NCBI RefSeq assembly: GCF_003052165.1
Contig: NZ_CP024869.1
Coordinates: 1,398,001 to 1,462,000 of the forward strand
Direction of reading: 5' to 3'
DNA: 64,000 bases
From: Dietzia sp. JS16-p6b
GTDB taxonomy: Bacteria > Actinomycetota > Actinomycetes > Mycobacteriales > Mycobacteriaceae
Shown: positions 61,752 through 63,159 of the stretch, piece after piece
How the letters are laid out: every line of letters starts with the position of its first letter
Numbering within the stretch: the stretch's first letter is position 1
The notes under the pieces: model-generated
Databases searched by the model: none
Told to the model about the DNA's origin: nothing
What the model saw: only the letters and a program-made list of their open reading frames with translations
Made by a program: the position numbers and the translations under genes

Positions 61752-61839
61752 CGCCCTCACGCCGCCCTCACGCCGCCCTCACGCCGCCCTCACGCCGCCC
61801 CTCGCCGCTCCTACGCCGCCCTCACGCCGCCCCTCGCCG
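61752..61839. repeat. 11-bp tandem repeat array
   Basis: The unit GCCGCCCTCAC is repeated four times in tandem, then decays through a related GCCCCTCGCCGCTCCTAC piece and reappears once. It abuts the left inverted repeat of the DUF559 cassette. Confidence 0.8.
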
Positions 61840-61884
61840 CGATCCGCCCCTCTGGGTGTGATTCGCCCCCGTAGTTCCGGGGGC
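61837..61884 (-). repeat. left inverted repeat of DUF559 cassette
   Basis: Read on the minus strand, these 48 bases match 63112-63159 on the plus strand at 35 positions (73%) without gaps. The conserved words are GCCCCC, CTACG, GATC-type and GAGGGGCGGA. The segment also contains a hairpin (GCCCCCG-TAGTTC-CGGGGGC). Confidence 0.7.
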
Positions 61885-62105
61885 AGAATGCAACGCTCGG
61901 GGTGCATCGTGTAACCACGGGGTCGTGCGGCACGTGATCGTCCATTGCTCCGAGGCGGCGCCCCGTCCCGCAGGCGAAACCTGGTGGTGAGCGCACAGAA
62001 AGGGGCGAACGGCGGCGATTCCAGCCCGCTGTGTCCGTCCACACCGTCATCGGGCGCCTACCGGATTCGACGGGTCGACGCAGAACCGTGGCACAGCATC
62101 AATGC

Positions 62106-63035
62106 ATGACCGGAATCGAAGAACTGCGTTCACGCCTCTTGACCACCCACGACCTGATAGCTCGGGGTGCCAGCGCCCAGGCTCTCAGCAGAGCGGTGTC
62201 CACCGGCGCGATGATCCGTCTGAGACCGGGGTTCTACGTCGACGCGGCCGCCCGAGAACTCAGCCGGGACGATCGACACCTCCTCATGGTCCTCGCGGCG
62301 GACAGATGTCTTGTGGCGCCGGTGTTCACCCACTGGTCTGCTGCACTTGTGCTGGGGCTCCCCTCATGGGGACTGCCGCTTCGGCAGGTGTCGGTGTCCC
62401 GCTACGGCCACGCCCAGCGATCGCGCAACACGAGGCTGACGAGACACGACGTGTCTCCGGTCGAGGCAGACGAGATCGTGACCGTCGGCGGACTTCAGGT
62501 CACTTCGCCAGATCGGACGGTGGTCGACATCGGAAGAGCCTGTGGGCGGGATACAAGTGTCGCGGTGGCCGATGCAGCTGTCTACGGCGAGTTGGCCACT
62601 GCGGAGTCACTGCACGTCGCCCTGGACCGGGCGGCGGGCAGAAGCGGGCTCAAGAAGGCTCGGGTGGCGATGACGCTGATGGACGGTCGGAGCGAGAGCG
62701 TTGCCGAGACACTGAGCAGGTTGACCTTCTCCGATCACTGCCTGCCGACGCCGGTGACCCAGGAGGACATCATCGACACACACGGAAATCGTGTCGCCCG
62801 CGTCGACTTCTTCTGGCGCGAACACGGGGTGATCGGCGAGTGCGATGGGTTCGGGAAGTACTTCGACGGACACGATCTCAGGGAGGTGAGACGTCGACTC
62901 GCGCGGGAGAAGGATCGCGACGCCGAGCTCGTCGCCCTCGGATATCGGGTCATCCACTGGCGGTGGGCAGATCTGGAGAGGCCGTGGTTGCTGGCCGAAC
63001 GGATCCGGCGCGTGCTGCTCGCGGCGGCAGCATGA
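62106..63035 (+). CDS. AbiEi-like N-terminus fused to DUF559 nuclease-like domain
   Basis: The 309-residue protein begins with a wing-helix segment like AbiEi-type antitoxin domains (TTHDLIARGASAQALSRAV, then GAMIRLRPGFYV) and a middle region with HWSAALVLGLP and SPDRTVVDIGRA. Its C-terminus resembles the Vsr-like PD-(D/E)XK domain DUF559: ESVAETLSRL, then ARVDFFWREHGVIGECDG with D234, E245 and D247, then REKDRDAEL (K269) and GYRVIHWRWADLERP. This suggests a nicking or endonuclease core, though activity is unproven. ATG 62106 is chosen by the conserved start; the frame from 62031 adds 25 unlikely residues. Many Actinobacteria carry several such genes of unknown purpose. There is no AbiEii toxin partner nearby. 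Confidence 0.75.
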   Translation: MTGIEELRSRLLTTHDLIARGASAQALSRAVSTGAMIRLRPGFYVDAAARELSRDDRHLLMVLAADRCLVAPVFTHWSAALVLGLPSWGLPLRQVSVSRYGHAQRSRNTRLTRHDVSPVEADEIVTVGGLQVTSPDRTVVDIGRACGRDTSVAVADAAVYGELATAESLHVALDRAAGRSGLKKARVAMTLMDGRSESVAETLSRLTFSDHCLPTPVTQEDIIDTHGNRVARVDFFWREHGVIGECDGFGKYFDGHDLREVRRRLAREKDRDAELVALGYRVIHWRWADLERPWLLAERIRRVLLAAAA

Positions 63036-63111
63036 GGATGAACCCGGTAGCCGACCTCCCCTGACGCCACACCTCACCGCTGTGGATGATCCGCCCATCC
63101 ACTCACGAGTC

Positions 63112-63159
63112 GCCCCCCGAGCTACGAGGGTGGATCGCGGTCCGAGGGGCGGACCGGGT
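63112..63159 (+). repeat. right inverted repeat of DUF559 cassette
   Basis: This is the plus-strand partner of 61837-61884, starting 77 bases after the DUF559 gene stop. It has the imperfect dyad CCCCGAGCTACGAGGG and ends 28 bases before the -10 element of the S4 gene, so it may form part of that promoter region. Confidence 0.65.

Follow-up and report, generated by a model that had tools for sequence, protein, structure and literature searches.

Introduction

Among described systems, the closest to the locus reported here is the REPtron, in which copies of an extragenic palindrome flank a TnpA_REP/RAYT gene and are scattered elsewhere as well (PMC8266576); such repetitive extragenic palindromes (REPs) lie mostly between convergent or tandem genes (PMC3733652). 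The EDxHD homing endonuclease I-Bth0305I is reported to bind as a dimer to a target nearly 60 bp long (PMC3943268), and a Rhodococcus genome paper counts proteins with the AbiEi domain name as type IV antitoxins (PMC12915292). The locus is a gene for a protein of 309 amino acids (aa) and the two repeat units that frame it, at positions 61841-63155 of a 64,000-nucleotide stretch of Dietzia sp. JS16-p6b (assembly GCF_003052165.1, contig NZ_CP024869.1, positions 1,398,001-1,462,000), referred to here as the window; the genome is one contig of 3.72 Mb.

As in a REPtron, a single gene is framed by extragenic palindromes, which are also dispersed and lie mainly where neighbouring genes converge or run in tandem; gene and repeat co-occur, and the repeat classes are private (PMC8266576, PMC3116915, PMC3733652). 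REPtrons, however, encode an HUH (Y1) transposase and have hairpins with a GTAG tag in hundreds of copies, whereas here there is a PD-(D/E)XK nuclease, and arrays of half-sites at 19-20 bp spacing occur in tens of copies. We do not regard the focal system as a REPtron, since its enzyme belongs to another class than the HUH transposases and its repeats resemble double-stranded arrays. I-Bth0305I is the best fold match, and its target of nearly 60 bp is close in length to the 46-69 bp units seen here (PMC3943268), but its gene splits one target, whereas the gene here lies between two copies of a presumed target of which solo copies are dispersed. The AbiEi/Rv2827c antitoxins share the N-terminal winged helix, and their genes are preceded by several inverted repeats (PMC7319586); the focal protein has an additional nuclease domain, there is no AbiEii-type gene beside it, and its repeats are also found downstream and dispersed. 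Relative to Vsr/DUF559 proteins such as VsrA of Caulobacter (PMC12907096), it adds a winged helix and flanking repeats, and it falls below the cutoff for Pfam DUF559.

We favour the interpretation that the gene forms, with its two units, a gene-plus-cognate-repeat system that operates in the manner of a REPtron with another enzyme. For the family as a whole the case is evenly poised: this Mycobacteriales family of Vsr-like nucleases may drive dispersed extragenic repeats of its own, written in private words on a 19-20 bp grid, or be maintained by them, as a restriction-fold REP-type system acting on double-stranded arrays and independent of HUH transposases. The findings suggest a gene-and-repeat partnership that appears to be undescribed: searches of the open-access literature yielded no description of DUF559 with inverted repeats or with AbiEi, and, among the matches listed, none of such a system in work on DUF559 (titles and the beginnings of abstracts), on extragenic palindromes with homing endonucleases, on the naming of AbiEi-domain antitoxins or in a broader search.

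Results

A nuclease-like gene framed by two arrays of half-sites

The focal gene (62106-63035, + strand) lies between a left unit at 61841-61909, with half-sites at 61841-61852 and 61860-61870 and inverted half-sites at 61879-61890 and 61898-61909, and a right unit at 63088-63155, with half-sites at 63088-63099 and 63107-63118 and inverted ones at 63126-63136 and 63144-63155. Each unit spans 68-69 bp and comprises four half-sites, GATNCGCCC and near variants, arranged about a dyad, with every step being 19 bp in both units. Inverted repeats of 48 bp had been proposed around the gene from a sequence-only reading; the inverted repeat is real (61840-61884 and 63112-63156, 45 nt, 76% complementary), its arms are kept in a sister species and its plan recurs in the family, although the 48-bp arms amount to half of each unit.

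To score flanking arms we compared the 500 bp upstream of a gene with the reverse complement of the 400 bp downstream, using a threshold score of 28. The focal arms have a gapped score of 24, a value reached at 8 of 415 window positions of the same spacing (maximum 27), two of the eight being the focal locus itself; the sister species, which retains both arms, scores 32. Taken alone, the focal inverted repeat is only moderately unusual, and the pair by itself was rejected as proof, its score being in the top 2% of real-DNA positions and not beyond.

The predicted AbiEi-like start of the protein is confirmed as a winged helix, with matches to PF13338 (25.7 bits, barely over the cutoff of 25) and to AbiEi in PADLOC (1e-12). 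The C-terminal Vsr/I-Bth0305I-like PD-(D/E)XK domain (residues ~196-309), also anticipated, is supported by its best fold matches, the homing endonuclease I-Bth0305I and Vsr; the catalytic-domain fold resembles that of an EDxHD homing endonuclease, and the PD-(D/E)XK residues are conserved across 85 family proteins. The structure model is unreliable in its central part (mean predicted local distance difference test score, pLDDT, 53), which was excluded from this reading. The DUF559 label fails: the focal protein does not match PF04480 at E<=1, and one of four traceable relatives scanned matches below the cutoff (17.3 vs 20.6 bits). No transposase domain appears in a Pfam scan of the focal protein, and a PDB sequence search returned nothing at E<=1. 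The protein is probably a DNA-cutting enzyme.

The N-terminal similarity and an upstream unit where an operator is expected would fit a simple AbiEi autoregulator resembling type IV antitoxins, with its operator duplicated downstream. We consider this very unlikely, given that the nuclease residues are conserved, that the units are dispersed (see below), and that the neighbours at the focal locus, named by recognition, are nitroreductase-like and S4-domain genes with no AbiEii-type toxin gene among them.

Flanking arms recur across the family

The focal protein has seven matches in its own genome, matches in all 23 Dietzia genomes searched, and matches at E<=1e-15 in 126 of 151 sampled Mycobacteriaceae genomes, many of them multi-copy; in annotations, family members tend to appear as hypothetical proteins or antitoxin-like ones. 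The nearest named homologues are those of D. natronolimnaea (90%) and D. aerolata (61%). Phage records contain no match to the protein, and the matching plasmid records are two from Tsukamurella tyrosinosolvens and one from Collinsella aerofaciens.

Filtering on start, length and uniqueness gave 85 distinct proteins, which we counted in preference to an earlier set of 102 loci because that set omitted loci with short flanks and repeated the same places. Inverted arms scoring at least 28 flank 49 of the 85 (29/44 in Dietzia and 20/41 in other genera), whereas none of 545 shifted positions in the same loci reaches that score (maximum 26). The arms of these 49 loci match each other within a locus with a median score of 38 and between loci with a median of 9, and between-locus comparisons reach 28 only where protein identity is at least 60%. 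Matching repeats accompany homologues of the protein, a point that the sequence-only reading had proposed to check, in words private to each lineage.

The inverted-only test was widened because a T. tyrosinosolvens plasmid homologue (L326) scores 14 for inverted arms yet shows, by eye, arms in the same orientation. With direct arms included, 58/85 proteins reach 28 and 44/85 reach 36, but the corresponding null of 371 positions extends to 35, and the inverted-arm count was therefore taken as the basis. The L326 gene (2992-3906 of its locus, NZ_LR134465.1), annotated as a hypothetical protein, has long GGGGGA-rich arms on both sides; the record, called a plasmid, also carries e.g. rpmG and hadA. 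Two distant homologues, L005 (at ~735961 in genome G000) and L034 (in G011), have arms made of tandem GGTTGGCGGAC words.

Private words on a common spacing

Within the 98 arms of the 49 loci, a nine-base word is repeated in the same orientation at a distance of 19 bp in 28 arms and of 20 bp in 16, whereas every other distance from 8 to 44 bp is seen in at most four arms, and a single shuffle per arm gives at most two. The word differs from one gene lineage to another while the whole family shares the 19-20 bp spacing, as is expected if the arrays are binding sites for related proteins whose specificity has diverged. At the focal place, too, species have different words, yet within each locus one arm matches the other.

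Dispersed units follow the gene for some words

Palindromes that are cognate to the gene, adjoin it and are dispersed extragenically are clear for two words and weak for a third. The first, the L093-type word (ATCCGCTAC..GTAGCGGAT), was counted across the 23 Dietzia genomes, with a control of 0 in all; counts include the gene's own arms where these fit. Gene-bearing genomes have 18 (G004), 12 (G008), 16 (G009), 9 (G014), 17 (G015), 11 (G019) and 28 (G020) units, and genomes with an empty site – both flanks located and no gene between – have 0 (G000), 2 (G002), 0 (G003), 5 (G006), 0 (G007), 1 (G012), 6 (G013) and 1 (G016). Eight genomes were excluded because the site is unresolved or broken in the assembly (G001 1, G005 14, G010 17, G011 0, G017 0, G018 1, G021 2, G022 0); G017 has a homologue with another word.

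The second word belongs to another genus (g20), in which the arms contain the pair AACGCGATAGAA-N22-TTCTATCGCGTT. It was counted 75 times in G041, 88 in G066, 67 in G082 and not at all in G098, with a reversed control of 0; the orthologue of the G041 query is 100%, 84% and 92% identical in G041, G066 and G082, respectively, whereas G098 has only a 47% match with an internal stop. In 27 of 28 g20 units read, a third, degenerate half-site-like word lies on exactly one side. The third word gives weak support for dispersal: it has 8 matches in G000, 17 in G016 and 6 in G019, with 0-2 in other genomes and a control of 0. Its genes are 72% identical between G000 and G019, the G016 copy has an in-frame stop, and G007 has a 69% identical homologue with different arms and 0 matches.

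For the focal lineage, dispersal of the core CCCCCGTAGTTCCGGGGGC in its own genome was rejected (3 places, namely the two arms and one with three mismatches, vs 8 for the reversed control); this search was misdirected because the core is mostly unit spacer, and the strict pair ATCYGCCC..GGGCRGAT was counted instead. It matches in 13 of the 23 Dietzia genomes, up to 9 times in each, with a control of 0, where counts include overlapping pairs and gene arms and some single matches look like chance. Dispersal is strong in some lineages and slight or absent in many; for the focal word it is slight in the window's genome.

Placement and conservation of the units

The units lie outside gene-like open reading frames (ORFs) in 39/40 and 28/28 cases, compared with 154/390 random positions. 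According to a rough gene finder, by which 15 of 68 units were without resolved neighbours, 36 of the 52 resolved units are between convergent genes, 16 between tandem genes and none between divergent genes. The inner half-sites (positions 19-29), left free by the search pattern, are conserved across 37 units, and the spacers are variable. In ten orthologous pairs of solo units the inner half-sites changed at 12/220 positions and the spacers at 63/280 (an eleventh pair was excluded from these counts for a length difference), and the partly coding flanks of 11 pairs changed at 405/3015. Positions 13-16 show a slight excess of spacer pairing (lowest p 0.01), but pairing in the 37 units is mostly at the level of column shuffles, which favours double-stranded sites over a single-stranded hairpin.

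These patterns bear on the main rival explanation, that the protein is a host-serving DNA-binding regulator or chromosome organiser with selected binding sites, in which the gene-side units serve as operators and the nuclease domain has some other role. Shared solo sites keep their half-sites while the spacers drift, units are often common to several species, and the genes of AbiEi-type proteins are preceded by two or four inverted repeats to which the proteins bind (PMC7319586), all as such a protein would have it. But divergent genes, where promoters are, have no units between them, which speaks against a transcription regulator; the words are lineage-specific, the number of units drops with loss or absence of the gene, and autoregulation needs no matching downstream unit. 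We regard this explanation as unlikely.

Convergent placement, together with terminator-like palindromes at some empty sites, could alternatively indicate ordinary palindromes, such as bidirectional terminators, lying beside the genes by chance. The within-locus match of the arms, the private words, the 19-20 bp spacing, the dependence of units on the gene and the shuffle-level spacer pairing make this scarcely credible, and no Rfam family was found at the units of the 11 loci scanned. The only Rfam hits in these loci are two cobalamin riboswitches, both in L163 (14219-14290 and 15263-15454).

Individual solo units vary in their distribution: one in G009 has no counterpart at the corresponding intergenic position of G013 and G000, and another is common to G008, G009 and G019. 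The test for concerted evolution of units within a genome gave a weak result (an effect of 0.045 with a permutation p of 0.0005, from four orthologous pairs with G008), and none is claimed.

A variable site in Dietzia

Where the site could be resolved, the gene is present between the nitroreductase-like and S4-domain genes in eleven Dietzia genomes, including that of the window, and in four others these two genes are merely ~100-180 bp apart. G011 and G018 (L064/L066) have instead what we take to be a VOC-like gene and a gene for a YafY-like regulator, the latter broken in G011, and the site is therefore variable in Dietzia. In G003 (L074) a gap of 405 bp at this site holds a single isolated palindrome; its outer word, GATCTGCCGC, differs from that of the gene which G003 has at L024. 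Empty sites, which the sequence-only reading had thought worth seeking, thus exist among Dietzia genomes for both the focal and the L093-type gene. The empty L093-type sites mostly hold other palindromes, and G006 has, by eye, a degenerate unit of the L093-type word. In L250, L251, L254, L255 and L256 the species differ in the palindrome at the same convergent place, some being terminator-like.

The G+C content of the focal gene is 65.5% vs 70.8% for the window, and none of 68 blocks of 930 bp is as low, in agreement with the lower G+C noted initially. The gene was said to separate treZ from treY; it does lie between them, but not alone, since this interval also contains what we recognise as a YigZ-like gene, a small ORF, the nitroreductase-like gene and the S4-domain gene. 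A tandem array of 8.3 copies of an 11-bp unit (61752-61840) directly adjoins the left repeat unit.

Discussion

The observations – flanking arms, private words, a common spacing, dispersal that follows the gene for two words, intergenic placement, slower change of half-sites and a conserved active site – are genomic correlates, from which we infer binding, cutting, autoregulation and the copying or spreading of units. In the mechanism we propose, the AbiEi-type winged helix would recognise a half-site of ~9-12 bp, and several protomers would occupy the half-site array, with its 19-20 bp spacing (about two helical turns), about the dyad. The upstream array probably also permits the protein to repress its own gene, like the AbiEi proteins that have been studied. 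The Vsr/I-Bth0305I-like domain would nick or cut at or near the arrays, and repair may maintain the arrays or copy them, rarely with the gene, to other intergenic sites. As each lineage has its own word, protein and repeat would change together.

Several findings weigh against a gene-plus-cognate-repeat system. Of the 85 proteins, 36 are under the inverted-arm threshold, the focal one included because of its own score of 24, and clear extra copies were found for 2 of 15 arm sets (120-204 kb samples from nine genomes). The gene-unit comparison uses raw genome counts with the kinship of the genomes uncorrected; some gene-less genomes (G006 and G013) retain units, and G005 and G010 have theirs without an assembled gene, the contigs breaking at the site. 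The strict focal-type pair occurs once only in the window's genome. Repeats at places unrelated to such a gene, put forward in the sequence-only reading as counter-evidence, are found in part: G007 has five focal-type pairs and its best homologue is just 35% identical. Many solo units are at the same places across species with diverged spacers, giving no sign of a recent burst, and a Foldseek search had no match at E<=0.001. Neither a target-site duplication nor a clean joint was found in the stretches read, where the empty alleles compared are not near-identical.

The idea of a homing or REP-associated element consequently survives in part. Repeats accompany the family, empty sites exist, dispersal goes with the gene for some words, and the fold is closest to that of a homing endonuclease; but there are many private words in place of one, and a moving cassette is left without its duplication or clean joint.

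If the gene-plus-cognate-repeat reading is correct, the family would consist of nucleases with long DNA targets deducible from the sequence on either side of each gene, and dozens of protein-word pairs would be directly testable. It would also provide a second, independent enzyme system in which to ask what spreads or keeps extragenic palindromes.
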